A stretch of 64,000 nt of DNA from Sinohyriopsis cumingii (lineage: Eukaryota; Mollusca; Bivalvia; Unionida; Unionidae): contig CM068830.1 of assembly GCA_028554795.2 (NCBI GenBank), forward strand, positions 111,241,214 to 111,305,213. The letters are read 5' to 3'. Each line of letters starts with the position of its first letter. Within the stretch, counting starts at the first letter, position 1. Both the position numbers and the translations under genes were made by a program. The notes under the pieces were generated by a model that worked only from the letters and a program-made list of their open reading frames with translations, ran no database searches and was not told the origin of the DNA. Positions 4,700-56,132 of the stretch are shown here, piece after piece.

Positions 4700-4702
4700 A
4701 TT

Positions 4703-5725: not shown

Positions 5726-5731
5726 TATATA
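5723..5731 (-). promoter_or_regulatory. TATATAATG start-overlapping motif
   Basis: TATATA abuts the ATG of the fibre-like gene. The spacing from the protease stop is only about 15 bases, so the motif probably lies within a compact late-gene array. Confidence 0.55.
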
Positions 5732-5739
5732 AGATCTCT

Positions 5740-6210: not shown

Positions 6211-6623
6211 CGAGATCCTGGCAATCTTAAGCCGCGTCCCTTTTTTTTGTATCCATTTCCAGTTGCTTTCTTTAGGGCCATTCCAGCAGCTGTTCCAACA
6301 GCACCTAACGCGGCTGCTTTTGCTACGGCTGGAGTGGCAGCAGCTATTAATGCTGGAATAGCCGCGAGAAGTGGAAAAATATCACCTGTTTTAATTGAGT
6401 CTTTAACCGCACCCACAGATAGATTGAGTTTGACGCCTGTTTTTGATTGTTTAGCATTGCTGAAATGTTTAAGCTGGCGTTCTGATAATGATAGTTTATT
6501 TTGACCACCCGTGATCTGATCTCGCTTTAGTGATATTTTCATTCCACAGTTTTTTGCTGAATTTGATTGAAGGTTTTTAATCTGACCAGGAGTCAGACTG
6601 ACTCTAACGTGATGATATGGCAT
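6180..6623 (-). CDS. pX/pVI-like minor capsid (membrane-lytic) protein
   Basis: I take ATG 6623 (protein begins MPYHHVRVSLTPGQIKNL) rather than the GTG 21 bases upstream. The N-terminal half has the alternating LTPGQIKNLQ / SLSERQLKHFSNA type motifs. Residues about 85-125 form a hydrophobic Ala-rich stretch (PLLAAIPALIAAATPAVAKA) with GAVGTAAG. The C-terminus is basic, Gly/Arg-rich and duplicated (GRGLRLP twice). This organisation is that of the adenovirus pVI/pX-related virion protein of Polinton-like elements, which in viruses acts in core packaging and membrane disruption. The last bases overlap the protease frame. Intact. Confidence 0.7.
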   Translation of the reverse strand: MPYHHVRVSLTPGQIKNLQSNSAKNCGMKISLKRDQITGGQNKLSLSERQLKHFSNAKQSKTGVKLNLSVGAVKDSIKTGDIFPLLAAIPALIAAATPAVAKAAALGAVGTAAGMALKKATGNGYKKKGRGLRLPGSRWGRGLRLPR

Positions 6624-6658
6624 TTTATGATAAATACTTGACACACTCCAAATGGTGA

Positions 6659-8032
6659 TTAAAGATTTTCCACTGGTGCATCAACGACTCTCATTCGGCC
6701 ACTACCACCTTCAAGTAACATGGCTTTATCGCTGAGTATAACCACGATTGCTCTGTAATTAACATTACCTGTATCTAATGTTGCTTTAAGATGTATATCA
6801 ACGACAGATTGTTTTGGTAGATCAAGATGCTCCAGTGAAAAATAATAAATCGGATACAACGTCCTGAATTCATGTTGTGATATTTGCAACCCAGTATCTA
6901 CATTTTGATCATGTCCCATGAATGACATCAAACGATGATATGCACGTCCTATATGATTTTGTGCATAATTTAGTTCTATATTCTCTGTTTGTTCTTGTTG
7001 TCCGTTTATCCGTAAGGAAATATTTGTAAGACCTAGTTGGTCAAATATCATATGAGAGTGAACTTGATTACCTAATCGATTACAGGTCTGAAACGCAATA
7101 AAAATATACCGTGGTGCAGAAACACCTTGTTGTGATGCTATATGCCATGTAAACTGACCGTTAACATTAGTTTGCATACTACCTGTGCTTGTTGTTAACC
7201 ATGACAACAAGGATTTACCACCTGTGTCCATGAAAGAAATCAACTTTTGTTCTTCTGCGATCGTTGGAGTCATTACCGGCATCCACAGTGAAAGTTTCGA
7301 TAATACTACTTTACCAGCATCACCAACAGGTCTCCACAGAGCATCGTTATCATCACCCTTTCTTACAAGAACAAGCGTGTGTCTAGCTCCAAAAATAACC
7401 TTTTTAACTTTCCTACAAAATCCAAAAATATGCGATAGTGGAATTGTACATGAAAATCTTCTATTGTCTCCTAGCAACATATTTCTACGCGCTGCAAATC
7501 CCAAGTTGAAATTTTCACTAGAACCATGAACCACTGGCCACACATCAGCGTCAGCATTATTGGCATTGTTTCTTGGTCGTCTTATATTATACGGATCGCT
7601 TTCAGAGTTATTAGAATCATCTTTGACAAACATCATTGTAGGACCTGCTGATCTTGTATAATCATCAGAACATCTTTCTAACCCTACTATTGTTGTAGCA
7701 ACATCGACATCATTCTCAATCGATTCAATATTTTTTCCATCAATCATATACGTGGCGCTACTAAATAATGCCATGATCCCGTTGTTGACAAAACCAACTT
7801 TTACTGCACCTCCGTAATTAATATCATCCGTTTTTATAATTTTACCTTCTACCTCAATAAAAGCCTCAGCGGGTAGAAAATATCTACTTGTGTCATGAAC
7901 TTGTAGTTCAATTCTTCCACGTTGATCTGGTGTTCATGCGTCATAGGAATAAAATTGATAATCACGTACCGATTCATCCTTAAGGACAGGTGCTTCCATG
8001 TCAAATGCTGTGTCAGATACGCGCATGAACAT
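6659..8032 (-). pseudogene. Major capsid protein, double-jelly-roll type, one in-frame TGA
   Basis: The frame is open for 371 codons from the ATG at 7774, but the same frame continues upstream to an ATG at 8032, giving 457 codons interrupted only by a TGA at 7936-7934. Conserved landmarks include an N-terminal segment with a GKIIKTDDINYGGAVK stretch and VNNGIMALFSSATY, the central IPLSHIFGFCRKVKKVIFGA and HTLVLVRKGDDNDALWR, and a C-terminal SVVDIHLKATL. I recognise these as a family of short (about 450-residue) capsid-like proteins encoded by invertebrate Polinton-like elements. The double-jelly-roll assignment is from family knowledge, not proven here. It precedes pX and protease, the usual order. 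The TGA means the copy is probably dead, unless readthrough occurs. Confidence 0.7.
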
Positions 8033-8103
8033 TTTATTATAATTATTTTCGTCCAACTCGTTGATTACCGCGTTCGGAAAATTCCATCTCAGGAAGTTCC
8101 ACC

Positions 8104-8540
8104 TCAGGAAATTCCACTTCCTGATATTAAACTTGAGATATTATTTCCCGATTCACTGAGTCCTTGATCTGCTAATGCCGCTAGTTTTTGATTCGCAGCT
8201 TGATTTATTATTTTACTGACGTCAGCGGGCATAATATCAGTACTTGGCAATTTTACTGGTGGTTGTCGTTTTCATCTTATTAATCATGCTGGTCTATCTT
8301 TGATCGCCGAGAACGCCTTACCAGCAACATTAACAATTGCACCAGGAGCTTTTTCACGAACAATATCAATAGCTTTCATCGATAATTGTTTGCAATAGGC
8401 ACTGCTTTTGGGGCTAGCCTTGTAAATAATCCCTGAATAACATCACCAAGTCCATCTCCGTAAATAACTCTATAGATTGGTAATCGTGAGTTTACCGCTC
8501 TGACCGATACGGATTTATGATGACTATTGTGTATGATCAT
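8104..8540 (-). pseudogene. Small basic core-type protein, frameshifted
   Basis: ATG 8540 opens a frame with VIYGDGLGDVIQGLFTRLAP (about residues 24-43). It stops after about 62 codons. A second frame with AIDIVREKAPGAIVNVAGKA continues the same protein to 8284, and a third frame with ADVSKIINQAANQKL continues to a TGA at 8106-8104. The motif GxGLGxxxxGLF plus Lys/Ala-rich helices matches a short protein that sits just upstream of the capsid gene in related elements, possibly a core or minor virion protein. At least two frameshifts. Confidence 0.5.
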
Positions 8541-8574
8541 CCTATTTTATTTACCATTTATTTAATCGCGGCGA

Positions 8575-9676
8575 CTAATCATCAACGAGCTCATCAATAA
8601 GTTCTCGGTAAACGCCAATATCCATGATACCGCCTTGAAATAATCTTCGACAATTATCAGATATTTCATTAACAATTTCTGTTGAGTTATTTCCGGCACA
8701 TTTTCCCCCTATGAGAACTTCTAACTGCGACACATCATTGAGGATATTATCAAGACATAAACCAGATCCTGTTTTAGGTTCATCTTGAGGTGTGCCAGGT
8801 GAATAACTTCGAAATCCACGTGGTGAATCTGTTGGTGTAAATGTCATCACTGGCGCAGAAATTATTTTACGTTGTAAAGGTGCAGGAAGCTGATATGAAG
8901 GTTCCTGCACCGGTGGAGAAAATTGATATGAAAATTCCTGCTACGGTGGAGGAAGTTCGTGCTGGGAGAGTTGTTCTTGTTCCAGTCTCTCTCTATGAAG
9001 TCTTTTTACTTCTTCATAAATACTTTTGAATTCTGGACCTCTAGCTTGTTTTTTGTTTCTATATATGCGATACATCCATCTAATAAGATCATCATTACTC
9101 ATTTTTTTACGACTGGGTTTTAAAATATTAGATTTCTTAAATATACCAAATAACATTATTTCGATAATTTTTTCTGTTTTAGTAGTATTTCTAATATCTT
9201 CAACAAACCCTTCATTAAATCTTGCAATTAGTTCTGCGTTTTCTCCTACTGGTTCGGGTTCAGATGCCGGCGACTTCAGTACGAAGTTTTCCAATATCTT
9301 CACCAATGGGTGGAGGTTGAGCTGCAGCTATATCAGTTGGAAGATCTCGTAAAATCCTTTTTGTTTGTTTGGTTCTTTTTGCTATTTTTTTAGTTTGTGC
9401 CGAAGTTTGTTCTAATACTGGAAAAATACCCTTTTTCCTCTTCTCATCTTCCTCCACAATATCTCCCAATATAGTTTTTTCAACAGCCGCTGAAGCATTT
9501 TCAGTAGATGTAGTGACGGGTTTAAATAATTTTTTAGTGTCCTCTTCGTACTCAACTTGTGCTTCTTGCTGCGCTTGTAGATTTTTTCTGAATGAATCTC
9601 TAACAGAAAGAAATTTTTTTATTGCTTCTAATCGTTCTCGAGATATCCTTGCAGTATGAGATTCCGGATGTACCAT
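8575..9676 (-). pseudogene. Unknown about 365-codon gene at the head of the block, broken
   Basis: Three ORFs form one gene. The first starts at ATG 9676 (MVHPESHTARISRERLEAIK) and ends at 9260. Its continuation in another frame (9306-8941) holds KKMSNDDLIRWMYRIYRNKK. That frame is interrupted by one TAG at 8943-8941 and goes on to 8575. The middle segment is a compact helical domain, and the tail is Pro/Gln-rich. Proteins of this layout accompany capsid genes in invertebrate Polinton-like elements, but I know no function. One frameshift and one stop suggest decay similar to the neighbours. Confidence 0.5.
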
Positions 9677-40082: not shown

Positions 40083-40440
40083 AACGCATATTTACTGCAG
40101 GCTAGAAAGTGGTAGAATGTGCTACTTCCGTCCAGCAGATTTTGATAGAAAGGGATTTTGACCTAAGTGGCAAAAATGAAAGTTAATTCGCCGGATTGGA
40201 TTCAGGACATGGTCAATTAAGAGTTATGCGTTGGTACATTACTGTCTTTTGAATGTATATGTGTAGTTTTTCAGTCTTCTTGCGATTCTGAAGCGATAAA
40301 AGATTCATGAGAAAAGTTGAATCGAGCGAAGGGTTGTGGTCACGCTTGCACTCCTTGTGTTTATTTATATTATCGATAAGGTGATTTCATATTGTTAGAG
40401 ATTTCGCCGTACTTTATTGATAAAACGTCAGACTCCTGTG
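40083..40440 (-). repeat. Right terminal inverted repeat of the 5.75-kb transposon
   Basis: Inverse of 34689-35046; see the entry for the whole element. Confidence 0.85.
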
Positions 40441-40512
40441 GCCATACATGGCGGCCAGTATTAATGGTGGAGGAAGAACCCGGGAAAACCCCAGAAAGAA
40501 CCACCGACCCAC
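40441..40512 (-). mobile_element. SINE family A, core half of the split copy
   Basis: The inverse reads CTTCTCGTGGGTCGGTGG...TACTGGCCGCCATGTATGG. The 5' end is truncated at the same CTTCTCGTGGG point as the SINE inside the polymerase gene at 51189. Confidence 0.8.
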
Positions 40513-40710
40513 GAGAAGCCACAGGGGCTCGTTACAAAGAAAATCAAGAGATGGGGGTTCTAACCTGTAATAATATAACACAAGGGAAGACACCGGTCCA
40601 CACCCCTCGGCAGTTAGTTTATCCTAATTGCGTCTGCTAATTTCCAAATTCGGCCAGTCGTAATCAAGAATAGTTCAATTTTCAAAACAGCTCGACACAC
40701 TTCTTTCAGT
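40513..40710 (-). repeat. Dispersed repeat X, first part
   Basis: Inverse of 47597-47807, including GGACCGGTGTCTTCCCTTGT and CGACTGGCCGAA. It is interrupted by SINE B and resumes at 41278. Confidence 0.75.
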
Positions 40711-40724
40711 TTGTGATATAATGG

Positions 40725-41263
40725 ATGTGATGTGATGTGATTTTGATTTTTTTAACGTAGCTTTAACAATTGTTCAGTCATATCGCTATGATGTCTGCAG
40801 TGTGGCAGTTTATAGTGATGTCTAGCACTGGTGCATCATGCCGCGGACATGTAGCATGATGTCCCACCCAGTCACATTATCCTGACACCAGGCCAACCAG
40901 TCCTAACACTAACCTCTTAATGCTGAACGCCAAGCGAGGCAGCTGTTGGTACCATTTTTTATTTCTCTGATATGACTCGGCCGGGGATCGAACCCACAAC
41001 CTCCCGCCAGAGGCGTAGCTATGATATTTTGCGCCCTGGGACGAACTATAAAATTGGCGCCCCAGCCCCCTTCCCGTTTAATCACATTTTTGAATATTAC
41101 CCTTGTTTACTTATTATAATGTAACGTTGTAAGCCTCATTTTGGCACCCCTGTACCTTGGCGCCCAGGGACATATGTACCCCGCTGCCCCCCCCCCCCCC
41201 CCAGCTACGCCTCTGCCTCCCGCATCCGAGGCGGACACTCTAACCACTAGGCGACCGGAGTGG
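40725..41263 (-). mobile_element. SINE family B, full-length, carrying a hAT-type insertion
   Basis: Perfect 14-bp target duplications TTGTGATATAATGG lie at 40711-40724 and 41264-41277. The minus strand reads a tRNA-like head (CGCCTAGTGGTTAGAGTG, then GTGGGTTCGATCCCCGGCC), a body shared with 27559-27792, and the (GTGAT)n tail at the left edge. The head is split by a 208-bp MITE. Confidence 0.9.
41008..41215. mobile_element. 208-bp hAT-type MITE
   Basis: Perfect 13-bp inverted ends CAGAGGCGTAGCT / AGCTACGCCTCTG and perfect 8-bp target duplications CCTCCCGC at 41000-41007 and 41216-41223. These are the signatures of the hAT superfamily. It is non-autonomous, contains a C-run at 41185-41202, and is inserted in the head of SINE B. 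Confidence 0.9.
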
Positions 41264-41277
41264 TTGTGATATAATGG

Positions 41278-41400
41278 AGAAAATGCAATAATTGTTCGCC
41301 GATCTTGACGTATGGACATCATCCCTACTCACAGCATGACAGTCTTGGATTTCACCATTGACCGAAAGGTAAGATCCGAACAAACTCGAGTGCGCAATTC
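41278..41400 (-). repeat. Dispersed repeat X, second part
   Basis: Inverse of 47456-47592, including CCGATCTTGACGT and CCATTGACCGAAAGGTAAG. Confidence 0.75.
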
Positions 41401-41404
41401 CACG

Positions 41405-43050
41405 GTAAATACAAGCAGATGAAATCAAAAAAAGAAATGGACAATTTTATTGTGCCATGGTAAATTTAGATTATTAGCGTATATATTTATGTATTTACCA
41501 AGGGGTCTTTGAAGTTCTATGTGACCTACTGTTATTGTTATGCGTTGGGGTGGAATGTTCCCAATATTTATTTGAATTACTATGGAATTCCCACCCTGGG
41601 TTGTTTTTGTAGGAAGTGAAATTAGTTATTGAGAGAGGTAAAGCTCCAAGGACCCAGTCAGCAATACTGACAATTAAATTATTAAGAACACAAAGGTGAA
41701 ATCCAAAAGAATAACAATTTAATACAAATTAAACGATATTAATTTCTCAACCAATCTTCTTCCTCTTGACCATGTGACAACCTATTTCATCACGTGATTA
41801 TAGTGTGAGATGGCTTTCCCCTGTACTTGGTTTCTATTCATCTGTGTTACTCCACCAATTCCTTTCCTCCTTCCGGCATTTTCTGTATTCTGATTCTTCC
41901 TATCCTCTTCCCCTTTTGTCTTCTTTTCTCCTCCTCCTCCTCCTCTCTCTCTCTTCCTCCAGCAACTAGGCTTGTTCTCGGCCTACATCCTGTCTCTCTG
42001 AGACTCGGGACTTGACTACCCGGTAGTTCTGTCCCCAAAAGCTTCCTACGAAAAACACAAGGACATTAGCATTTGTGTTAGCCATCTCACCTCACACTAC
42101 ATCAACAATCAATCTATCATCAGATCAATGCTATCTACATCTTTGGTCACGCATTCGTGCACATAAAAAAACCCACATGTTCTTATAGAAAACAATGTTG
42201 CAATAAAGCGGTATCCTAATTATCATACAGAAATCACTAAATTGCATAACATCAATATATATATATATTCTTAATCTCATTATTCTCAACAATATCACAA
42301 AAAACAGGCGCATTTCTGTACATTACTCCCCCACAAGTGTACACAAATATTCAAATATCCATATTATTTACATTTACACACTGCAACCATTTCCAAAGTT
42401 ACAATTTAATTCAACAGTTGCAAAATCTAGAAAATCACATAAATAAATACACTAGTTTACCACGAAGTAACTAAACAGCTTATTACAATATTAATTCTAA
42501 CGAGCGAGCAATGTACATAATCATAGCTCATTTCTCAAGTAAGCATGTAAATTAAACAATACAAAGGTAATTCTATGTACTAACAATTCTAGTAAGTAAA
42601 TATACATACTGCACATAATTACAATTACAATACCGTAACAATCTGCAACAATCAAGCAAATAACTCACTGACCTTTACGAAGCTTTCTGTCCTTGAATGT
42701 ACCAAGGTTTTTCCCGCCAAATCACGAGTGGCTCCCAAAGTTATTGCTACAACTTGTCAGCACGATGCTTCACAATGACTAATTCGTTCCCAGCCCAAAT
42801 GACTGTTAAATTCTGGTTCGAATTGATGGCCCCACCCTTTCTCAGTTCTGATTGGATATCAATTCTACCCCAGTCGGTCCAGATTAACAGACGAGCCTCA
42901 GGCCATCTGTCAATGCAGGGATATTTACAACAGCATTGAGGGTCCTTTGTTCTTGAACAAAGCTTTTAACGTCTGTATGTGAGTTTTAACACCTAACGAA
43001 GCAGCTCTTGTACAAACACGAATCGCCACGACAGTGCAGGGTCGACATAC
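41405..43050. other. No gene recognised; possible retrotransposon flank
   Basis: Contains a pyrimidine-rich run near 41925-41960 and a TA run near 42256. It lies at the 3' side of the Ty3/Gypsy relic and could hold its untranslated region and LTR, but I see no matching second LTR. Confidence 0.35.
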
Positions 43051-43058
43051 TCATGGCG

Positions 43059-43250
43059 CTAACCCATTCTTTTGTTCCTCGACTTACGTAATCGCGGCAG
43101 GAAAATGTGACAGGGTCCCTCAGTCCTACACTCATGTAGGTTCTTTAAAATGTGACACCTTATCTCAGGAGGGGCCACCAATAGCAACAATGACTGCTTA
43201 CTATGAGTGGTCTCCCAATGCTTATATAACAGGCCATCTTGGACCTCCAA
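43059..43250 (-). pseudogene. Gypsy integrase N-terminal region
   Basis: DGLLYKHWE followed by LLLVAPPEIRCHILKNLHEC and a degraded continuation. This is the zinc-binding HHCC region that precedes the integrase core; it then ends. Confidence 0.6.
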
Positions 43251-43723
43251 ACTAGTCCACTGTCTCAGCAGGGACTTCGCTTCCTGTCTCTACCAAACTA
43301 ATTGAAAGGGAAGAGGTTTTTCAGCACCTTCTTCCTTTAATTGCAACACTAACCCTATACAAAGGTCATTCTGTTGAAACTCTTAGTTGTTCCACACCCA
43401 AGTGCCTAACCAATTCGACTCGCTTTTGGCTTTACCGCTGGAGCCATACACCTCACGTGCAGTATTTTGCTTTGCTTATTCTCTACAGAAGTCTCTTCGG
43501 ACTGTTTGAGAAACTGTTCCAACAACAGTCCGGTTTACAATTTCTTTGCACTAACACGCAAGCAGTCCTGGCAATCGTCGCGCTTACATTTATGCGGGAT
43601 CCTGCTTTGTCTATTTGCATTTCCATGCGAAGAACCTTTACGGTGTTATATTTCAAAGTCATACGCATCTAATACTGATAAACATCGCGCGACCATGCCT
43701 TCTGGTTCTTTGAAATTTTTAAG

Positions 43724-44728
43724 TCACTTCAGCGAACTATGGTCTGTCCTGACAATGAATTTTCTTCCCCACAAATAGTGTTTGAATTCTTTGACTAATG
43801 TAACTACAGCTAATAATTCCCTGTAGGTAATACAATAGTGCCTCTGTTGTTTATTCAGAGTCCTACTAGCGTAAGCTATAATTCTCTTCTTATCATCTTG
43901 GAGCTGCGATAAAACCGCTTCAGTACCATACGAACTTGCATCTGTGTCTAGAATAAATGTTCCATCCCTGTTGGGATATGTCAGAATAGGTGCTGTTGTC
44001 AAAATTGTTTTCAGCTTATCAGAAGCCTCATGATGGGGTTGTGACCAAGTAAAGGGTTGGTTTTTCTGAGTCAACTGAGATAAAGGATATGCTATTGAGG
44101 AGAAGTTTTTAATAAACCTCCTATAATAGGAAGCTGTACCAAGGAAGCTTACTTCCAACACATTTTTCGGTGTTGGCCAATTTTTAACACTCTCTTCCTT
44201 CTTTGGATCACATTTTATACCGTCTTCGAACATAATGTGTCCAAGATAAGAAATGTGCTTTTGAAACAAAGTACATTTTAACGGTTTAAATTTTACGTTG
44301 GCCTCTTGGAAGCACTCGAAGACTAATTTCAAATTTTCCAGAGCTGGTTCAAAAGTACTACCAATCATGATAATGTCATTTAGATATGCTAAACACTGCT
44401 CAAAGTCATTCCGTGTAGCATGACTTGGACCAAACGCATAAGAGAGCGAGTTAGATAGACCAAACGGCAATACCTTAAACTGAAATATTCCTTTGTAACT
44501 AGCAAATGCTGTTTTCTCTCTATCATTTTCGTCTAACGTTACCTGGCAGTATCCACTAGCAAGATTTAACATGGAAAACCATTTTGCCCCAGACAGTGCG
44601 TCAAGGGAATCGTCAATTCTAGGAAGCGGATATGCGTCTTTACCAGTTACAGCATTCAATTTCCTGTAATCTACGCAAAATTGAGGCATTCCATCTTTCT
44701 TAGTTACCAAACAATAGGTGCAGCCCAA
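43724..44728 (-). pseudogene. Gypsy reverse transcriptase and RNase H
   Basis: A long 334-codon frame. RT blocks include FCVDYRKLNAVTGKDAYPLP, WFSMLNLASGYCQV and VLPFGLSNS. The catalytic box reads YLNDIIMIGS, so the first Asp of YxDD is Asn. RNase H follows with FILDTDASSYGTEAVLSQ and ends in RTDHSSLK; a frameshifted continuation is recognisable to about 43500. The lost Asp predicts a dead enzyme. Confidence 0.85.
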
Positions 44729-45506
44729 GGGCTATCACTTGGTTATATTACATCTTCAGCAAGCGTGCGTTCAATCTTTTTCCACTTCTTTCTGAGATAA
44801 TGGTAATCTACGAGAAGGCAATTTTATAGGTTTACTGTCACCAGTGTCTATTACATGTTTTATTTTATCAGTTCTGCCTAACATACCATCGGGTCCTACA
44901 AAGACATCGGCGTACTAGGCTATGAGTATCTGCAACGATCTCTTTTTGTTCGAATGAAACCTTTTCAGATACTCTGTCTACCAAAGGTTTAAGATGATTT
45001 GGCACTGGTTTATCTGAATTGCAAGGTGTCTCGAATTTTGAAACAGTCCCAGAGCAAACATTGCACAGGATGTGTTTGAGCTATCGGTACCCCTTTCTTC
45101 AGTGTGAGCGGTTCAGAGGTAAAATTCACTACGGAAATAAAACACTTCGGAATTCTCAATTTTTACTAAAGACTTTGGCAAAATCAAACCAGTTTCTTCT
45201 GAAAATTGTTTGAGAGGTTCGACCATGCCCTCTCTGGTTATTTCCCATTCTCCCTGTATGTATCCCTTAACAAACATATTTGATTTTGGAGGGATAGCGA
45301 TCGAGTCCGTGACATTTATTCATGCACAGGAAAAGCTGTTTTCCTTTCTGATTTTCAGCTTTCTAATTTTCAGAATGCCATTCTTCAAATTTAAGTTGGC
45401 ATTATTTTTTTTCTAGAAAATCCAAACCAATTATTCCAGGTAACCCGTCTAGATCAGTCTAGATCAGCAACTATTGCGTTCCTTTCAAAAGCTCTACCAC
45501 CCATCT

Positions 45507-45970
45507 TTAATTTGAAGACAGCTTGCCCATAAATGTTGAATAAACCTGCGTCTGTAGCTGTTTTAAATCAGGTTTTCCCGACACAAGTCTTTTAAAAACT
45601 TGTTTAGAAATAAGTGTTACAGCGGACCCAGTATCTACTAAAAATTTCACAGACGTTTGACACATGCGGACAGACACAAAATGACAGGTTTTGGCAATAG
45701 CATTTACTCTTAAAGTTGGCCTTTCAGAGTCTTTATTACTCTTCTTACTGTGTTTATAACAGTGGGCCAAACTGTTGGCCTCAAGACCAGTCCGTTCTAG
45801 TTTAACTCTACACCATTCTTAGCCGATTGTTCCGGCTTCACCTGATTATCTAAAATACTATTAGGTCTGTTCGGGTTCTTTTTCATGGGGCAGTCTCGAC
45901 TCATGTGACCCAATCCATGATAAGTGTAACACTCTATCTGATTGGCTCTGGCAGTCTGACGATCTGCTCG
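45507..45970 (-). pseudogene. Gypsy zinc knuckle and aspartic protease
   Basis: The protease motif is FLVDTGSAVTLIS. Upstream, CYTYHGLGHMSRDC is a CCHC knuckle whose second Cys is Tyr. The stretch between is frameshifted. Confidence 0.75.
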
Positions 45971-46084
45971 ATAGGTAGTATTCCTATCCTTCTTTTATAT
46001 ATTGCCAATTACCATATTTATCTGTCCTTGTATTTTCTGTCAACAGTTTCGCCACAGTGTCCACAGATTCTTGGATAGCTTTAA

Positions 46085-46851
46085 CTACCCTTGTAAGGTT
46101 ATCAATATTCGAACGCGTGTTACTGTCTTTACTTTCTGGTTACCTGTCTCGGTATTGCTTTGGGGCAGGTCCTGTTTAGACCCAAGAGCTCTAACAGGGA
46201 TCTCCTTATTTATAGGTTTCTGTAAATTTGGCCAAGCCCCTTCAAAGGCCTCATACTCAATGGCACTGGCCATTGCATCATCTGGAGTTTTGGGATGCCC
46301 AAATTGAACATACTTTCTAATTTCCTGACTCCCTAGCCCACATATATATTGATCTATCAATATGTCTTCCCTAGCCAAAACGGGAATCATCGGAAATGCG
46401 TGACAGGCTAGTCGCCTCAACGCATAACCATAGTCTGCAGCGGACTCTGGTTTTTGTCTGTTTCTAAACTCGCATCTATAAGCAGTTTCCCTTTCTATCG
46501 GACTGAATCTTTGTTCTAAACCAGCTTTAAGAAAGTCATAGTCCCCTATTTTAGTTCGGTCTAAATCACCTAGTAACTGTTATGCTACTTCTCTTAAACT
46601 CATTGCAAGTTGTTGAGCTCTTTTACTTTTATTCCAATTATTCCAATAAGCAACTTGCTCAAATGTACAATATAATCTTGCCATTCAACGTTTTTGCCAT
46701 CGAATTTGTCAGGTTCTTTTTCTTTCCTAAATCGTTCGGTACCTTCTGAGTATTTATTTTGCCCAAATTCATTCGCTTTGTTTGAATCCTTGTGACTGAA
46801 GTCACCACCAGAACGATCGTACGCAGTACAGTTAGAATTGTGTATTACCAA
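46085..46851 (-). pseudogene. Gypsy gag remnant
   Basis: Two frames: EKEPDKFDGKNVEWQDYIVH (N-terminal capsid) and ILIDQYICGLGSQEIRKYVQ (C-terminal capsid), both typical of Ty3-type gag. Stops lie between them. Confidence 0.7.
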
Positions 46852-47150
46852 GTTTACGCAACGCCCACTTGACCTTGAATTGGGCTAATCGTTTCACACG
46901 ACTCGGGATTCCTCAGCTTCTGATGTCAAGTGACCACTATCTACCACCCAAGAGCAAGCTGAAGGCACGGACTCATTTGTGCAACAACCATTTGAACAAC
47001 AGGAAATATCTCACAATATACTGTCATCCCATGCAGCATCTCGAGTTTTGGAGAGATTCTTTTCGTGCGAATTGTTTCTGTCAGCACGAAGGAAATGGGA
47101 CTCCAATTTTTGTTTTTGTGAGAGGAAGCGACGTTTGAATACTTGACCAA

Positions 47151-47312
47151 GGGGTCATCCATAAATGACGTCACGCGATTTTGGCCGATTTTTTACCACT
47201 ACTCTCCCTCGTCACACATTTTTTAAACAAATTCCTTGGCCTCGTCACACATTGTCACAAATGTGTGACCCCCTCCCCCCAAGGTGCGTGAGGTCATTTA
47301 TGGATGGTCCCC
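47151..47312. mobile_element. 162-bp MITE with GGGGTCATCCATAAATGACG ends
   Basis: The left end GGGGTCATCCATAAATGACG is mirrored at the right by GAGGTCATTTATGGATGGTCCCC. The interior holds paired TCACACATT boxes. The superfamily is not assigned. Confidence 0.75.
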
Positions 47313-47436
47313 AAGAAGCAGTGTTACCGCATGTCGGATTGTGCACATTCTGCTTTTTAGCGAATTGGTCCACAAAATAACGGTGTTTATTTTCCTTGCA
47401 TGTGTCCTGGTGATATAATTCATCACTTTTAATAGC

Positions 47437-47815
47437 GTTTTCACCATTGACCGAAAGGTAAGTTTGTTCGGATCTTACCTTTCGGTCAATGGTGAAATCC
47501 AAGATTGTCCGAATGCAAAATTGCACTGTGAGTAGGGTTAATGTCTAGACGTCAAGATCGGCGAACAATTATTGCATTTTCTCCATTATGTCACAAACTG
47601 AACGAAGTGTGTCGAGCTGTTTTGAAAATTGAACTATTCTTGATTACGACTGGCCGAAGTTCGAAATTAGCAGACGCAATTAGGATAATATAGCAGTGTT
47701 GGAACTGCTGAGGGGTGCGGACCGGTGTCTTCCCTTGTGTTATATTATTACGGGTTAGAACCCCCATCCCTTGATTTTCTTTGTAACGAGCCCCTGTGGT
47801 CAGGAAAGATAACGC
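47437..47815 (+). repeat. Dispersed repeat X, uninterrupted copy
   Basis: It matches the inverse of the two parts at 40513-40710 and 41278-41400 and shows the empty SINE target once (inverse of TTGTGACATAATGG). It contains a perfect 24-bp hairpin (47439-47462 with 47474-47497, 11-base loop). Confidence 0.8.
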
Positions 47816-48300: not shown

Positions 48301-48448
48301 ACACCTTCGACATTTAGATACAATTAGCTATTGTGTGGTCAAATTTTGTCTTTTGGTAATTTGCTGTTTGATGATCAATATATGTATATATAACCAAATA
48401 CTTCTGAAGACCTCCCAAAAATATATGTTTAAATGCTACTAAAACATG

Positions 48449-48824
48449 AGTAGTGAATGGGGGTACTTTAGCCTCTATGGGAATTAGCGGTACAGGACCC
48501 CTTGGGATCGTTTAGCCCCAATGGAAATTTAACATGGGGGAAAAATCGTGGGATCGTTTAGCCTCAAGGGGAAATTAACATGGGTGGGACAGTATAGCCT
48601 CAAGGGGAATTGAATATGGGAAATGGAATAGGGTGGGGACCCTGTTTTATTATGGTCCCGACCTGATAGGTCTATGGAAAGTGAACAGGGGAGAGGGATA
48701 TAAAACACGCACACACACACACGCACACACACATATAAAATAAAAAAATAAAAAGGGTAGGCAATTGAAAGTCAATCTCTTTTCGAGAAATTGGAGTGGC
48801 CCTGAAAAGGGTCTTTAGGTTTAT
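48449..48824 (+). repeat. Left Polinton terminal inverted repeat
   Basis: Matches the inverse of 55763-56126. It contains three spaced copies of (T/C)AGCCTCAAGGGGAA-type boxes (for example GGGATCGTTTAGCC at 48504 and 48552), then a CA microsatellite (48708-48732), then the histone-type module at the inner edge. Confidence 0.88.
48760..48813 (-). terminator. Histone-type 3' stem-loop and U7-like element (left TIR)
   Basis: On the minus strand GACCCTTTTCAGGGCC (48813-48798) is followed by ACTCC and, 10 bases on, CTCGAAAAGAGATTG. It is the histone stem-loop with TTTC loop and one stem mismatch (A opposite C, a G-to-A change). It points outward to the left end and lies 28 bases after the stop of the minus ORF 49068-48841. 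Confidence 0.75.
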
Positions 48825-48840
48825 GTTAATGTATCCATTA

Positions 48841-49068
48841 TCATAAAGGGCACCGCATTGGTCTTCTTTTCCTTAGGCTGCGCCTCACTGTAGGACCGTA
48901 AATCAGGACTCTTTTCAGGCATTCTTGCCTCTCCACGTAAATCCTACTTATCCATAGGGTGGTGTCGGTCCTATGGACAAGTGTCCACTTGGACCGGACA
49001 TACATGGGTATGTCCGTCCGAAACATCATTGTTGACACAAGGGTTGAAGATTGAACATCGGTCCACAT
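48841..49068 (-). CDS. Hypothetical 75-aa basic protein
   Basis: ATG-initiated ORF ending in an Arg-rich tail (VRRSLRKRRPMRCPL). I recognise no family. Support comes from its placement: it lies divergent from the 49288 gene with a shared upstream region, and its stop is 28 bases before an outward histone-type stem-loop, the usual mRNA spacing. A second frame ending near 48824 is an alternative. Confidence 0.4.
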   Translation of the reverse strand: MWTDVQSSTLVSTMMFRTDIPMYVRSKWTLVHRTDTTLWISRIYVERQECLKRVLIYGPTVRRSLRKRRPMRCPL

Positions 49069-49230
49069 CTTGAGGCTCCGAGAACAGGTGAATCAATGCA
49101 GTGAACTGCGTTTATTTATAGGTAGAGAAAGGATTGAAACGGATTGAGTTCATTGACCAATCCAAACACGCGTTACAAAATTCATTCAGCCCACGTCCAA
49201 TCGGAAGAGAGCAGTCTGTGACGTCACGTG

Positions 49231-49241
49231 GTCTATATAGA
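49231..49241 (+). promoter_or_regulatory. TATA box of Polinton gene 1
   Basis: CTATATAGATT lies about 50 bases upstream of the chosen ATG at 49288, a normal RNA polymerase II distance for a short leader. Confidence 0.45.
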
Positions 49242-49287
49242 TTCGCTAGCGCCTGTGTGTAGTCAATATATGCGAGAGTTTTTGAAC

Positions 49288-49703
49288 ATGACGGAAACTC
49301 AGAAAACGATCTATTGGGGTGCATCAGCAGTGGAGACCGCCCAAGGGAACCCGGACTTACTTTCAGAAGAGGTGAATTGGGATTTTGTGGATTTTCTTAC
49401 CTCGCAAGAATTTGTTCCGGAACCTTCGTCACCTTCATTACCGCACGTGGAGAATTTTAGACAGAGACAGAAAGAAGAATTGGAGAAATTTATACAACGG
49501 CAAAAGGAAGCGGAACAAGCTTTTCTCCTACAGCAACAGCAACAAGAAGAAGAGGTAAGAAAAAACAAGAAGAAGAAGCAAAGAAACAAGAGGGTGAAAG
49601 TCAAACCGTCACGATACTATTGGACATTTTAGCGGAGTTAAGGAGTCTGAAACAAATGTATCAGACTTCTTTATCACGACTGAAGAGAACCTTCCCGAGC
49701 TAA
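49288..49703 (+). pseudogene. Polinton small gene 1: Gln/Glu-rich coiled-coil protein
   Basis: I choose ATG 49288 (MTETQKTIYWGASAVET); ATG 49270 is an in-frame alternative. Residues 60-95 are a strongly charged Gln/Glu coiled coil (RQRQKEELEKFIQRQKEAEQ). The frame runs out at 49632, but after the AAGAAAAAAC run (near 49559) another frame continues the coiled coil with EGESQTVTILLDILAELRSL and stops at TAA 49701-49703, which looks like a one-base indel. A GAG|GTAAGA donor-like site sits at the same place, so splicing is an alternative. Function unknown. A histone-type stem-loop follows at 49846. Confidence 0.55.
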
Positions 49704-49845
49704 ACACGCCAACCCTGTGAATAAGCCTACCGTACCACCCTTAGTGATTTCAACCAAATCATCGTCATCAGAAGTAGGCCTCGGCCGTGGCAAAGGCTTA
49801 AGGCAGTTAAAGTTGATTGCTTAAACTCACCCCTACACCAAAAAA

Positions 49846-49899
49846 GGCCCTCTTAAGGGCCACACACGTCTCTCGAAAAGAGATAGACTTTCAATTGCC
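49846..49899 (+). terminator. Histone-type 3' stem-loop and U7-like element, gene 1
   Basis: GGCCCTCTTAAGGGCC (49846-49861) has a perfect 6-bp stem and CTTA loop. It is preceded by CCAAAAAA and followed by ACACACGTCTCTCG and the purine element CGAAAAGAGATAG. TTTCAATTGCC then follows, as in the terminal repeats. Confidence 0.75.
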
Positions 49900-50095
49900 A
49901 ATAACTAAAAAAAAAAAAAACATTTTACCCCTATACGTGTCTGTGTATGAGTGCGTGAGTGTAGGTTCTTATTTTAAAATCAAAAACCCAAAGACACTTA
50001 CCTTTTATAATTTTATTCTTTTATCAATATTTACAATTCAATTCACAATTCAAAACAAATCACTCTTGAAAAGTTCATTGACTTCTTCTGTCTCA

Positions 50096-50613
50096 TCATT
50101 TACTCTGTTTTTTCAATTTCTTCACAGACACAGTCTTTTCCTCTTCTTCCTCCTCACAGTCTTCCCTTCTTTTCTTCTCCAGTTTCTTTTTCTTTGCCTC
50201 TTGTGAATAGAATTGTCTTCTTTCTTCGTCTGAAGAATCCCTCTCTTCTTCCTCTGAAGAACCCCTCTCTTCTCTCTTCTTTTGACTCCTCTTGTTTCTT
50301 TTTGGGGCAATCTGGAGACCAATGTCCTTTTTCTTCACAATAATAACAGGTATCTTGACTTTTGTCTTTTCTAACCCCTTTTTTTTCTTTTTTGACGGTC
50401 TGAACACTCTGAAGACCAATGCCCTTTCTTCTGACAGATATAGCAAGTATCTTCAGTTTTACCTCGAAAGGAAGGAGAGTAGTCCGTCGGCTGGTATGAA
50501 GAAAATTTTCTAATGACCCCTCGCAAAGCTCTGATGAAACGTTCGATTTGGCTAGTCTCTTCCATCGTTGTGCTCGGTTTAAGAGTGAAATGAATAGTGA
50601 AAGGACAACACAT
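50096..50613 (-). pseudogene. Polinton gene with two CCHC zinc knuckles
   Basis: ATG 50613 opens a frame with CYICQKKGHWSSEC (CX2CX4HX4C). After a shift at the GAAAAAAAAGGGG run (about 50380) a second knuckle CYYCEEKGHWSPDC appears in another frame, and a further frame gives an acidic Ser/Glu stretch (SSEEEERDSSDEERRQF) and a Lys-rich tail ending at 50096. Zinc knuckles bind single-stranded nucleic acid, so a replication or packaging role is possible (inference). It is divergent from the polymerase gene with a shared 90-base upstream region. Confidence 0.6.
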
Positions 50614-50699
50614 AGCCTTTTTTATACGACGGTCTGCGATGACTATTAATTAGCCCATTGTATTTAAACTTTGGTCATTTGACTTTTTGCTTTCAAGAT

Positions 50700-53600
50700 C
50701 AAACGATCCAATTCATTTGAGAAGAAAGAAGAAGAAAGTAAGAGGCAGAAACGTGATCTATCGCCTCGTACCAGGGCTGAAGTCTTGGCACAAATTCATG
50801 CCAGTGATTTTGAAGATGACAATAGTGAACCAGAATCCAAACCCTCTAAACAAAGTTCACTACCCTTAGTTAACCCTGAAAAATACTATTCCATTCGAGA
50901 GACGGAAAAGCCCTCCTCTAGAAAATTTAGAACCACGGCTTACAAATACACGGTGAAATTTAAAGATTTCAAGGCCGAAGTACCGTTAGAGAAAACAGAA
51001 GGGTTCATCACCAGGGTGTGGGATTCTTTGCTCACCACACTCAAGCGACAATGTCAACCCAAAGAAGACGATCGCTTGAGACTTTCCATACAACACGACG
51101 GTTTGAAATCCCCTGTTTGGATCGAGTTTAGCGTCCCTGCAGAATTCATTGCTTCCAAAGTCATGGACAAGAATCAACACGTACAACAGTAGCTTCTCGT
51201 GGGTCGGTGGTTCTTTCCAGGGGTTTTCCGGGTTCTTCCTCCACAATTAATACTGGCCGCCATGTATAGCCTATCTTGTGCTGAAAAATGGCGTTAAATC
51301 CTACAACAACAACAACAACACGTACAACAATCCAATGACCAGTTTGACATCACCGATGGAAAAGCCACACTGGACATGACCCACGTCTCTCCTCCTCAAG
51401 GGACAGGACGCAAAAAGATGTTATAGGTGGACGACCTTCGCAGCACCAAAAAGAGTCTCGTCCGAATTAACAACCCTCAAGACCAGATGCGTTTAGCCCG
51501 AGCCATCGTGGTGGGACGAACTTATGTCAACAAGAACGACACGGTAGAATGGAAAAGAGCCTGGAAAACTATTCGACAATCGGACCGAGCCAAACAACGA
51601 AACGAATCAGAACTCTTGTCACGACAAGCTGGCCTGTCCAATGACACATCCTGCAGCATTTCTGAGATGCAAAAATTGCAAGATGTCCTAGCTCCACGCT
51701 ACACCTTGAAAGTGCACCCTCAAGAAGTGCGCAGACCTCTGTTGTTTCGAGGCCAAGACTTTAAGGATGGAAAATACATTCACCTTTATCATCGCGATGA
51801 CCATTTCGATACCATTACCAGTATCACCGCATTCCTGGGATACGGTTATTACTGTGAGAAATGTGACTATGGCTATAACAATCGAGAGCAACACAAACAT
51901 TGCGGATCGAAATGTTCAGGATGTTTGGCCTGTCCACCCTGTCTGAACGAAGGGCAAGAACCACTGCATTGTCCTGCTTGTCTGCGCACGTTTGTCAGCC
52001 CTGCCTGTTACCAACAACATCTGAAGACGCAAGGTTCACAGCAGAAATGTGCTTGTCAACTCCTGAGATTGTGCACTACCTGTGGACAAGGCATACGTAC
52101 CAATACTGTCAAGGCACACGTATGTCGAGGAAAGAAAAAATGTCACATTTGTCATCACATCGTGGACTTGGAACACCAATGATACGTGCAAAAATACCAA
52201 CCCCAACCAGAGAAAGAGGATGGTCACAAGAATAAAAAGGCAATTTCATCTTTTTCGATTTCGAATGCATGCAAAAGAGACCGGTATTCACATTCCTAAT
52301 TTCTGCGTGGCTCATCGAGCGTGCGAAAGGTGCATTCAAGAACCTATCTTCAGTCATTGCCCTCACTGCAGCAAGATTCCTGGAGGGCGTGAAAAAATCT
52401 TTCGGGGACCGAACACGCTAGCCGATTTCGCCCAATGGGTCTTAGACCCCATCGACAAGACGTGGAGCCAAGAGGACATCGAATGTTACGGAGATTGTCA
52501 TCGTCATGCTACGGTGATGGCTCACAATTTCTCCGGATACGATGGACAGTTTCTTTTGAGATAATATACGGAACAAGGCACCGAGCGTCCTAAAGTCACT
52601 TTGAACGGAGCCAAAATTATTTTCATGCAAGTGGGACAAGTGCAGTTTAAAGATTCGATGAGTTACTTGGCCATGCCTTTGAGTCGAATGCCTAAAACGT
52701 TTGGAATGACAGAAATGGCTAAGGGGTACTTTCCACACTTTTTCAATACGGAAGCCAATCAACACGCCGTTCTACCCCATTTACCTGAGGTTCACTATTA
52801 CGACCCCGACAACATGCGTACCGAACAACGAGAAGCTTTCTACGCTTGGTACCAGGTCCATGCCTACGACCCTTTCGACTTTCAGGAAGAAATGCTAAAG
52901 TATTGTCGTTCCGACGTAGACATTTTACGACGATGCTGTGGAAAATTTCGAGAACTGTTCATGGAACACGGAGGGGTCGATCCTTTGAAAGAAGCTTGCA
53001 CCATTGCCAAAGCGTGTTCCTTAGTGTACCGCCAACGATTCATGCCTGAAAACACCGTGGCTGTCATCAGTCCTCAAACGACCAACTATGTCAAACGTTA
53101 ATACTCGGTCAAAGCCCTACGCTGTTTACATTACTTGTGTGACAAGGAAGACAAATGGATTCAGCATGCCCGCAACGGAGGGGGCGAAAAGACCATCAGA
53201 ACGCATTCGGTCGATGGCTGGGACCTAGAAAACCCCAAGCGCGTGTACGAATTTAACGGTCACTTATTTCACGGATGTCCCGTCTGTTACCCTGACCGCA
53301 GCACTAAAAATCAGTTTTTACAACGAACCATGGAAGACTTGTACCAGACCACTTGTCAGCGACGTCTAAAGTTAGAACAGGAAGGATACCAAGTGGTGGA
53401 ACTGTGGGAACACGAATACGATCACCGTTTGAAAACCGATCCCGAGTTTAAACGTCTCGTGGAAAGTTAACACGGACTTATACCATCCCGTCTTACCTCA
53501 TCATTGCCAGGGCAAACTGATGTTTCCCTTGTGTCGTACTTGTGCCGAAACGTGCAACCAAGATTAACCTTGTCAGCACACCCAGGAAGAACGGGCCTTG

Positions 53601-54704
53601 ATGGGGACGTGGGTCAGCATAGAATTGTTCAAAGCTCTGGACATGGGAAAACAACTGTTAGAAGTGTACGAAATTTGTCACTTTCCCAAGACACAACAAT
53701 ACCACAAGGGTGACCCCAAGCAGAAAGGCATTTTCGCAGACTACGTGGATGCCTTTTTGAAACTGAAGCAAGAAGCCAGATGCTATCCGTCCTGGTGTCA
53801 CACTCCCGAAGACCAAAAGACATTCAAAGAGAAATACTGGGCACAAGAAGGCATCACTTTAGATCACATCGAGAAAAACGAAGGCAGGCGATCGTTTGCC
53901 AAAGTGATGTTAAATTGCTTGTGGGGTAAAATGGCACAACGACCGTGTTTATCCAAGACGGAATATTTGACAGAACCTTCTCGCTACTTCCAGATGATTC
54001 ACGACAAAACTAAATTCATGAAACACGTGGACGTCGTTCGCGAAAATTTGATCTTGGTCAATTACGAAGAAGATCTGGACTTTGTACAAGACGACCCCTT
54101 TGGAAATGTCATCATTGCGGCTTACGTGACAGCTCATGCTCGCTTAAAATTGTACGAAGCTTTAGAACTGTTAGGGGAACGCGTCCTGTACTTTGACACG
54201 GACAGTTGCATTTACATCGATCACCCGAGTCAACAACACCCTGACATCGAAGGAGACCGTTTAGGAGCCTGGACAGACGAGCACCCCGACGACAAGATTC
54301 TAAGTTTCGCCAGTGGTGTTCCTAAAAATTACGGCTACGAATACCGGGACAAACAAAGAGAAGTGCACACGAAGTGTAAAGTGAAAGGATTGACTCTGAA
54401 TTATCGTACCAGTCGAGTGGTCAACTTTGGGGTATTGAAAGAAGCCTTGCAATCTGGAGAGGATGGAAACTTTAAAGTGGCCACCTATCAACCCAACAAG
54501 ATTGTACGTTTACCCACGTCGACCCTTGGAAAAAGTCTATTAAATCGTGTACCAGAAGCGAGTGCGACTTCCCAACCACTTTACTTTGCTGTATGGACAC
54601 GTTGGTATCAATCATCCCGCCTCTGCACTCCCAAGAAAAAAGTAAAAGGAGACTGGGGAAGAAGATGTGTGTGTGGTGCCAGGCCTGGAAGGTGCCATCA
54701 TTAA
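50700..54704 (+). pseudogene. Protein-primed family-B DNA polymerase of Polinton type (inactivated)
   Basis: Landmarks in order: an N-terminal domain (KFKDFKAEVPLEKTEGFITR); a Cys-rich zinc region (51850-52140); Exo I FFDFEC near 52250; Exo II MAHNFSGYDGQF near 52520; Exo III KYCRSDVDILRR near 52900; an inserted nuclease-like segment (EFNGHLFHGCPVC ... ELWEHEYD, 53250-53420); motif B FAKVMLNCLWGKM near 53900; and motif C YFDTDSC at 54192-54212. Motif A and roughly 100 residues around it are missing between about 53468 and 53475. Stops occur at 51424 (TAG), 52180 (TGA), 52562, 53099, 53468 and 53565 (TAA), with frameshifts near 52250, 53470 and 54540, and a SINE at 51189. No ATG is evident. 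The frame opens after TGA near 50682 and an acceptor-like CTTTTTGCTTTCAAG is present. It would replicate the element from terminal-protein primers; this copy cannot. Confidence 0.88.
51189..51316 (+). mobile_element. SINE family A inserted in the polymerase gene
   Basis: Perfect 13-bp target duplications AACACGTACAACA at 51176-51188 and 51317-51329. The body runs from TAGCTTCTCGTGGG to the (ACA)n tail and is 5'-truncated. Confidence 0.92.
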
Positions 54705-54730
54705 CCAGGTGTCACTGGAGTTAAAAAAAC

Positions 54731-54775
54731 AGCCCTTTTCAGGGCTACCCAATACTCTAGAAAAGAAATAGTAAT
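54731..54775 (+). terminator. Histone-type 3' stem-loop and U7-like element, polymerase gene
   Basis: AGCCCTTTTCAGGGCT (54731-54746) has a perfect 6-bp stem and TTTC loop. It is flanked by AAAAAAAC before and ACCCAA after, as in metazoan histone mRNAs. CTAGAAAAGAAATAG follows at about 54757. The stem has A-T in place of the first G-C pair seen in the other copies, a compensated change. It lies 27 bases after the last stop of the polymerase gene. Confidence 0.88.
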
Positions 54776-54832
54776 CGATTTGCCAATGTGTGTATGTAGA
54801 GTAGTGTGAATATGAACACTATTTTTTCTTGT

Positions 54833-54861
54833 GTGTGTGTGTGTGTTTGTGTGTGTGTGTT
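54833..54861 (+). repeat. GT microsatellite
   Basis: TTGTGTGTGTGTGTGTG run downstream of the polymerase terminator. GT/CA runs also follow the modules in both terminal repeats. Confidence 0.9.
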
Positions 54862-55158
54862 TTGCAAGCGCTCAAGTACATTAATGTGGTTGGTACATTA
54901 TTGGGTTTAATAATAATGCTCTGCGTGTGTGAATAGTAGATTTGGGGTTTGTTTATTGCTGTTTCACGTATGTGGATAGTAGATAATATGAAATGATAAA
55001 AGTAGGGGATGTTTTCCTTCACGTCCGCGCGTTTTAAGTAATGATATAGGTAATATAAATTTTATGTCTTTGGGGATGTTTTCCTTCACGTCCGCGCTTT
55101 AACTATAAGAACACACAAGGTTTGATGTTCGAATCCTTCTAAGGAATAAACAAAGAAG

Positions 55159-55684
55159 ATGGAGGTGACAAAATTATTCAACAATTTGAGAGATAGCTAT
55201 TTTTGGATCATGGATGGGACTTATGTAGTAGAAAGACTGAATAAGGAAGGAAGATTTGAAGGTAGCCTGAACGATGTGAAGAGTCTTGGAATAGCAAAAG
55301 ATCAAATAGGGGGAATGATTGAGGAAGAAGTAGAAAGGATCAGAGGATTCATTGACCCACCTTACGTGAGAGTACTCAGTAGGTACTTTAAAGGAGGCCT
55401 TGGATCATATCATAGAAGATAGGAGCTTCCTAGAAAATAGCTTTCATTGGACTGACTGGTGGTACGTAAAGTGGGGTTGTAACCAGTTGATAAAAGCAGA
55501 AGAACTAATTAGAGAGGTAATGAAAGTAGAAGTGTTGAAGATAAAAGAAAAATGGAGCAAAGAGAGAAAGGAAGAAGAGAAGAAGAAGAAGAAATTAGAG
55601 TTTGAAAGATTAAATAACAACTGGATGAAGCTCCAACAGAAATTCAGAGAGATGGGCCATCCTGACTGGATAACAGAGGAGTAG
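55159..55684 (+). pseudogene. Polinton small gene: unknown protein, frameshifted
   Basis: ATG 55159 opens 87 codons (MEVTKLFNNLRDSYFWIMDG). A second frame from about 55385 continues with LKEALDHIIEDRSFLENSFH and HWTDWWYVKWGCNQ, then a Lys/Glu coiled coil, to the TAG at 55682-55684. One base is lost near 55390. I recognise no family. The segment is purine-rich on the coding strand. A histone-type stem-loop follows 88 bases after the stop, in the right terminal repeat. Confidence 0.5.
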
Positions 55685-55762
55685 AAGAAGAGGAAGAAGA
55701 AAGGAATAATGAAAAAAGTGAGGACTTGGTGGAAGAAGTGGAGGAGTTAGAAGAAGAAGAAG

Positions 55763-56126
55763 AAACCCAAAGGCCCTTTTCAGGGCCACTCATAGGTCTC
55801 GAAAAGAGATACACTTTCAATTGCCTTAGCCCCATTTTTTTATTTTGTTTATTGTGTGTGTGTGTGTGTGTTTTATACCCCTCTTCCCTGTTCCCTTTCC
55901 ATAGGCCTATCAGGTCGGGACCATATTAAAATAGGGTCCCGACCCTATTCCATTTCCCATATTCAATTCTCCTTGAGGCTATACAGTCCCACCCATGTTA
56001 ATTTCCCCTTGAGGCTAAACGATCCCACGATTTTTCCCCATGTTAAATTTCCATTGAGGCTAAACGATCCCAAGGGGTCCTGTAATGCTAATTCCCATTG
56101 AGGCTAAGGTATCCCTATTCACTACT
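55763..56126 (-). repeat. Right Polinton terminal inverted repeat
   Basis: Inverse of 48449-48824, with the same GT microsatellite (55853-55871) and AGCCTCAAGGGGAA-type boxes. Outer end abuts AACATG. Confidence 0.88.
55772..55825 (+). terminator. Histone-type 3' stem-loop and U7-like element (right TIR)
   Basis: CCCAAAGGCCCTTTTCAGGG continuing to GCCACTCA: the perfect GGCCCT/AGGGCC stem, TTTC loop and A-rich 5' flank are those of animal histone genes. GGTCTCGAAAAGAGATAC begins 9 bases after the stem. It points outward to the right end. Confidence 0.9.
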
Positions 56127-56132
56127 AACATG

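Follow-up and report, generated by a model that had tools for sequence, protein, structure and literature searches.

We analysed a 64,000-nucleotide stretch of the genome of the unionid bivalve Sinohyriopsis cumingii (contig CM068830.1, positions 111,241,214 to 111,305,213; hereafter the window), which contains an internally deleted Polinton-type element with short genes at both ends (Table 1). Judging from sequence comparison, it is very probable that these terminal genes end in a functional histone-mRNA 3' processing signal, consisting of a stem-loop and a downstream purine element, by which this Polinton/Maverick family would join the histone programme of its host.

The element and its genes

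The element is a Polinton by its terminal inverted repeats, the 6-bp target-site duplication AACATG and its DNA polymerase B gene (PF03175, presumably of the protein-primed type), and its copy in the window is internally deleted. The family numbers thousands of copies in the host genome. The inverted repeats measure approximately 375 bp at each end and include an inner block (48537-48722 and 55854-56039) that is 95% complementary. These features, together with a high copy number, are shared with Polinton/Maverick elements in general (self-synthesising DNA transposons or adintovirus-like proviruses), whereas the terminal genes of the window family differ in ending in histone stem-loops and, in some cases, in carrying histone-type promoter sequence. 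Compared with copies elsewhere in the genome, the gene order is A (-), B (+), a broken polymerase B (+), the tail of C (+) and a broken D (+).

Table 1. Features of the Polinton-type element in the window (positions counted from the first nucleotide of the window)
Feature	Position	Strand	Remarks
Target-site duplication AACATG, left copy	48443..48448		
Internally deleted Polinton-type element of 7,678 bp	48449..56126		ends AGTAGTG...CACTACT; termini and duplication located
Left terminal inverted repeat	48449..48822		
Stem-loop and purine element after gene A	48773..48818	-	RF00032 26.0 bits; one A.C stem mismatch
Gene A, ~76 aa	48844..49068	-	tblastn 84% over residues 1-76
Divergent promoter, genes A/B	49069..49287		
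Gene B	49288..49821	+	tblastn 57% over residues 1-190; relatives mostly 183-195 aa
Stem-loop and purine element after gene B	49841..49886	+	RF00032 33.8 bits
DNA polymerase B (organellar/viral type), broken, C-terminally truncated	50698..54617	+	PF03175
Gene C tail, residues 132-150 of 150	54645..54701	+	deletion-joined to polymerase
Stem-loop and purine element after gene C	54726..54772	+	RF00032 33.0 bits; outer pair A-U, not G-C
Host H2B-type promoter element	55008..55030	+	1 mismatch to host H2B promoter
Second H2B-type promoter element, then TATA	55075..55097	+	
Gene D, frame broken in window copy	55150..55681	+	tblastn 55-59%
Right terminal inverted repeat	55763..56126		
Stem-loop and purine element after gene D	55767..55811	+	RF00032 37.8 bits
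Target-site duplication AACATG, right copy	56127..56132		

Across copies, gene A encodes 76-78 amino acids (77 in the relative at locus L032, with an isoelectric point of 11.3), gene B 183-195 and gene C about 100-150, and gene D occurs in two variants. The polymerase of the window matches residues 1-1349 of a 1378-residue relative in pieces (tblastn). Six open reading frames (ORFs) of this internally deleted copy were scanned, and neither an RVE integrase (by Pfam) nor a double-jelly-roll (DJR) capsid was found in them. In the genome as a whole 126 DJR matches were scored, one of which follows, on the same strand and approximately 4.8 kb further downstream, a polymerase belonging to the window element's family (C3:96751188 and C3:96755994); we estimate the chance expectation of such proximity at approximately 0.06 for the two lists. 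The window copy is 7.68 kb long; in other copies left-type and right-type signals are 13-18 kb apart, a spacing compatible with a full length of 15-20 kb.

Searches with the polymerase gave 215 homologues; the named ones among the 120 listed come mostly from marine invertebrates, with some from ants. Gene B has 19 protein relatives in public sequence sets at 56-91% identity, so the family probably extends beyond this host. Public viral contigs were searched with a piece of the polymerase and its alignment of 30 rows, with two metagenomic relatives, and with gene B as an alignment of 15 rows, and they yielded no useful relatives; one of these searches returned 13 distant loci (25-49% identity) that we took for phage-type polymerases. 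Public genome contigs likewise gave no relatives. Weak matches came from six phage records, and two strict stem-loop patterns matched viral contigs 16 times and once, all 17 matches being read as chance from their context.

Four histone-type stem-loops in the window

A first-pass annotation, made from the letters of the sequence, had placed four metazoan histone stem-loops in this element, and all four are where it put them, with stems at 49846-49861, 54731-54746 and 55772-55787 on the plus strand and 48798-48813 on the minus strand. It described a 6-bp stem throughout, but the minus-strand copy forms five of the six pairs. The Rfam Histone3 model (RF00032, gathering score 34 bits) was run on 24 kb containing the element and on positions 1-40000. 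It scored the four sites far above background (E-values of 7e-8 to 0.0017 in the 24-kb scan), the signal of gene D being the one of the four that exceeds the gathering score. No other match with E up to 1 was found in the scanned window sequence, and none at all in 1-40000. The pattern GGCCCTNTTNAGGGCC, with at most two mismatches, matched six times in the window, always at these four sites, against 0.09 expected in shuffled sequence; two of the six matches come from reading the palindrome on the reverse strand. Since two of the four sites are situated close to the inner limits of the terminal repeats, they are not independent of each other within the window copy.

The same annotation had each stem-loop just after a gene. 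This holds for genes A and B and only in part for the other two: the stem-loop at 54731 follows the last 19 residues of gene C, which a deletion has joined to the truncated polymerase, and the one at 55772 follows the broken gene D. As comparison with other copies shows, this internal deletion put the tail of gene C behind the polymerase, so that the stem-loop at 54731 is that of gene C and not of the polymerase. The alternative that the polymerase itself ends in such a signal was rejected, the window junction being a deletion and the polymerase copies examined elsewhere lacking it. A motif scan of approximately 1.5 kb downstream of the polymerase found no signal at any of 28 loci, and RF00032 gave no match at any of the 18 of these loci that were scanned with it, nor at L090 and L091 (20 sources, 91 kb). 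Hence not all genes of the element bear the signal.

Signals at gene ends throughout the host genome

In the 2.9-Gb host assembly, RF00032 was scored for the best 75 of 589,472 first-look candidates. All 75 exceeded the gathering score and were distributed over the chromosomes, and the top 30 are copies of the window element. Five histones used as tblastn queries revealed no histone gene in the 3-kb loci around these 30 (L030-L059). In the genome, 33,110 places match the exact pattern RGCCCTTTTCAGGGCYAC-N11-GAAAAGA, and none matches its reversed control. Host histone stem-loops in L093, L095 and L099 have a TTTT loop or different bases after the stem and hence do not match this pattern, so that the H3, H4 and H2B genes add nothing to the 33,110.

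The cleanest sample for the presence of the signal is a set of twelve loci chosen by the gene B protein, the query's own place included. These contained 19 matches above the gathering score (35.6-45 bits), one at each of the 12 gene B ends and seven elsewhere, confirming the earlier expectation that other copies conserve the stem-loop. A motif scan of L030-L059 found 59 stem-loops. For 41 of them an open frame of 60 or more amino acids ends no further than 60 nt upstream, and in 36 of these 41 the stem comes 18-27 nt after the stop codon. The genes in question are at least four short conserved ones, A, B, C and D.

We then counted gene ends that RF00032 had not picked, some of which adjoin a picked stem-loop of a neighbouring gene. 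The signal was present at 24/24 ends of gene B, 11/13 of gene A and 12/13 of gene C. These counts leave out ends lacking the C-terminus or having less than 120 nt of downstream sequence, as well as L100 (the same place as L032) and L060/L061 (the window copy and its duplicate). The two misses of gene A are a mutated stem-loop and a truncation into the terminal repeat, and that of gene C is a partial match with 35% identity. In 44 of the 47 signals the motif GAAAAG follows the stem at exactly 13 nt, within the 10-15 bases first estimated for the purine element. Before duplicates were removed, the counts were 12/14 (A), 25/25 (B) and 14/15 (C), and 48/51 for the 13-nt spacing.

The stem-loops could instead act mainly as DNA, serving as palindromic modules for recombination, cassette swapping or replication of a linear element. 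A module of approximately 57 nt is indeed repeated in both orientations within one element, and two loci have the arrangements that recombination between such repeats predicts: L032 (194-3042) has its A-B cassette inverted with respect to the polymerase, and in L045 (187-2947) gene D adjoins gene A. There the modules form repeats, inverted or direct, through which this shuffling seems to have come about. We nevertheless hold a mainly DNA-level role to be very unlikely, given that the module lies 3' of preserved gene ends, on the strand of the gene and mostly at the narrow distance given above, with a purine element 13 nt further on as in host histone genes; a palindrome needs neither that position nor that element.

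Conservation and base-pair changes

Among the gene-end segments compared, the stem-loop has the highest mean pairwise identity, at 0.962 for gene A, 0.950 for gene B and 0.922 for gene C, against 0.897, 0.824 and 0.772, respectively, for the last coding stretch. These figures include the rows of L100 and L060/L061 and use only copies with a stem-loop score of at least 16. The outer pair of the stem is G-C in 12/12 copies of gene A and 22/25 of gene B, and A-U in 13/14 of gene C. Letters were obtained for 84 of the first 100 exact stem-loop places listed in the genome; 44 of these have A-U, 39 have G-C, one has a mismatch and none has G-U.

Comparison with the histone genes of the host

The host carries its H4 gene in a tandem array in more than 100 copies. 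The array (L093-L099) has a unit of approximately 8.27-8.29 kb and is found mostly on high-numbered contigs. Host H3, H4 and H2B genes (L093, L095 and L099) end in GGCCCT-TTTT-AGGGCC or GGCCCT-TTTC-AGGGCC, followed 13 nt later by GAAAAGA. The gene ends of the element have in common with these replication-dependent histone genes the stem sequence, a 4-nt loop, an A-rich 5' flank, an ACC-type 3' flank, the 13-nt spacing to GAAAAGA and the position soon after the stop codon. The genes themselves are likewise short, apparently intronless and provided with a TATA box near their start. They differ in their products, the proteins of genes A-D having no Pfam family above the cut-off, histones included. 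At the level of sequence, then, the ends of the terminal genes combine an RF00032 stem-loop with a purine element at the host spacing, on the sense strand behind the stop codon, as a histone-type 3' end does.

Since host genes share the stem, the spacing and promoter sequence, the 3' ends might be functionless passengers that were acquired with fragments of host histone genes. We give this reading very little credence: the stem-loop is the most conserved stretch, it stands after several different genes, its outer stem shows paired changes, and the signals of the element often outscore those of the host (up to 45 bits at the twelve gene B loci versus 35.9-38.2 bits).

Histone-type promoter sequences

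What is new beyond the 3' ends is that genes C and D have, by sequence match, stretches of 21-23 nt in common with the promoters of H2B and H4 in the host, where GATGTTTTCCATCACGTCCGCGC is part of the H2B promoter and TTTCTTTTAGGTCCGCGCGTTT of the H4 promoter. With 0-1 mismatches, GATGTTTTCCATCACGTCCGCGC was found in 13/13 right-arm loci of L030-L059 (exact in five), and with up to three mismatches in none of the other 17. TTTCTTTTAGGTCCGCGCGTTT was found with 0-2 mismatches in 5/13 right-arm loci and is exact in one. The window has the GATGTTTTCCATCACGTCCGCGC-type element twice upstream of gene D, from 55008 and from 55075. The motif TCCGCGC lies within 400 nt of the start in 8/9 copies of gene C and 9/9 of gene D. 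The core ACGTCCGC presumably resembles the HINFP/MIZF site.

The H2B-type motif in its 21-nt form has 32,574 occurrences in the genome (none for the control). At the first 100 places of the listing it is grouped on one and the same strand, with gaps that recur at 68-77, 662-821 and 844-908 nt. For the 81 of these places below 5.42 Mb we compared promoter and stem-loop positions: an exact stem-loop accompanies 47 of the motifs on the same strand within 1.5 kb, in 33 cases at 421-517 nt, and none of the 81 has one on the opposite strand within that distance. The grouping of the motifs and the same-strand distances suggest a further gene of the A-D kind, which probably lies before gene C.

A TATA box precedes the ATG at 52 nt in gene A, 54 nt in gene B (5/6), 58-66 nt in gene C (5/6) and 46-56 nt in gene D (6/7), as measured in about six related loci per gene. 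With so high a copy number the signals could be imagined to titrate SLBP and U7 as decoys, thereby disturbing the host's histone supply. Their position behind the stop codons of conserved frames and the near-fixed distance of the TATA box point to ordinary mRNAs instead, and we consider a decoy role extremely unlikely.

Proposed mechanism and its weighing

The sequence, position, strand, spacing, copy number and conservation of the signals, and their identity with those of host histone genes, are what the proposed processing is built on; RNA processing, trans-acting factors, timing and benefit, like every step after transcription, are set out here as we infer them. Genes A and B at one end, and at the other C and D, probably with one more gene ahead of C, would be transcribed as short, apparently intronless, TATA-driven mRNAs. 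The stem-loop would most likely be bound by SLBP, the GAAAAGA element, 13 nt downstream, would be recognised through pairing by the U7 small nuclear ribonucleoprotein of the host, and cleavage by CPSF73 about 5 nt after the stem would leave messages without poly(A). Host histone genes use the same downstream sequence, and one U7 could therefore serve both host and element. HiNF-P is described as recruiting NPAT at H4 genes in a passage of PMC5706932. The histone-type promoters of C and D, together with the 3' signals, would place these genes in the host histone programme, with expression during S phase, the time at which both host chromatin and the element's own DNA are copied. With more reserve than for the 3' ends, we lean towards such a histone-mimic regulon, in which the histone-type promoters of C and D, and the histone-type 3' ends that every known terminal gene has, would give access to the NPAT/SLBP/U7 pathway, S-phase timing and stabilisation of the messages.

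The histone-type processing that the first-pass annotation had proposed came through two tests that could have overturned it, namely covariance scores at background and a lack of conservation in other copies. Several observations weigh on the other side. Searches of the host genome for U7 small nuclear RNA (snRNA; RF00066) and SLBP (PF15247) gave no match, and their built-in controls were silent too; the presence of both in the host is implied by a histone array bearing these signals. AATAAA or ATTAAA occurs within 250 nt behind the stem-loop at 31/86 sites versus 31.5 in shuffles, so poly(A) signals are neither enriched nor depleted and polyadenylation may still be used. All nine ends of gene D had been picked by RF00032, and D therefore gives no independent count. 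The purine-element stretch (15 nt; mean pairwise identity 0.795 in A, 0.829 in B and 0.864 in C) has lower identity than the stem-loop, and behind gene A it also falls below the coding tail (0.795 vs 0.897). The compensated base-pair change to which the first-pass annotation had pointed is seen as a swap of A-U for G-C, with no G-U among the 84 copies, but it follows gene classes and may go back to a single ancestral paired event.

On the promoter side, TCCGCGC was found within 400 nt of the start in 0/30 copies of gene A and 0/29 of gene B, and the A-B promoter shares no k-mers with histone promoters beyond chance. An exact stem-loop within 1.5 kb is lacking at 34/81 promoter motifs, the exact pattern missing variants, and three weaker promoter matches lie in the flanking DNA of L090/L091 without a stem-loop. 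The promoter element is thus not confined to these genes; compared here with the histone promoters of the host, it may be a general one.

Precedent and significance

Stem-loop-ended mRNAs without poly(A) are generally held to be confined to replication-dependent histone genes. We know of no description of a Polinton whose genes end in histone stem-loops, and a literature search for links of Polintons with the histone stem-loop, histone mRNA or U7 snRNA, or of transposable elements with the histone stem-loop, found none. The claim of novelty made at first reading therefore stands for the literature found, with a qualification: section 16 of PMC12220804 counts six histone stem-loop matches in Polinton-like viruses/virophages, in that section a bare number without genes, positions or interpretation.

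If the proposed processing takes place, a selfish element can take over the histone 3'-end pathway, with its signal, and in part the promoter sequence as well, at tens of thousands of genomic sites. Polinton gene expression would then be coupled to S phase, and the transcripts of the element would be missed in poly(A)-selected RNA-seq. When and how Polintons are expressed thereby becomes a directly testable question.

Neighbouring features and related copies

Between gene B and the polymerase, a probable CCHC zinc-knuckle gene lies on the minus strand (49980-50640) and converges with gene B; the domain was found in the related locus L032. An AATAAA, noted by eye downstream of it, suggests that this gene may use ordinary poly(A).

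A second Polinton-type stretch occupies 3559-9676 of the window on the minus strand, with a DJR capsid at 6659-7774 and a weak, below-cut-off match to an adenovirus-type protease at 5740-6210. RF00032 found no histone stem-loop in it (about 3.5-9.7 kb). The stretch may come from the middle of a related element, and it is no clean control for the signal. Nested repeats lie at 40440-47800, with inverted-repeat arms at 40519-40725 and 47582-47799 and a reverse-transcriptase/RNase H fragment (43724-44728) between the arms. A short repeat from this region recurs at 51189-51271 inside the Polinton.

The copy at L061 (C7:113497304), 2.2 Mb from the window element on the same chromosome, is near-identical to it across 4 kb of comparison (identity rounding to 100%, length 3 bp less), which may reflect either duplication in the recent past or an effect of the assembly. 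Polymerase copies also form outward-pointing pairs, with the two members on opposite strands and 12-14 kb apart, at C5:60313888/60326202, C9:110981966/110995170, C12:34530763/34544736, C12:35412984/35426946 and C17:115743556/115755790; these may be inverted double elements or long-repeat forms.

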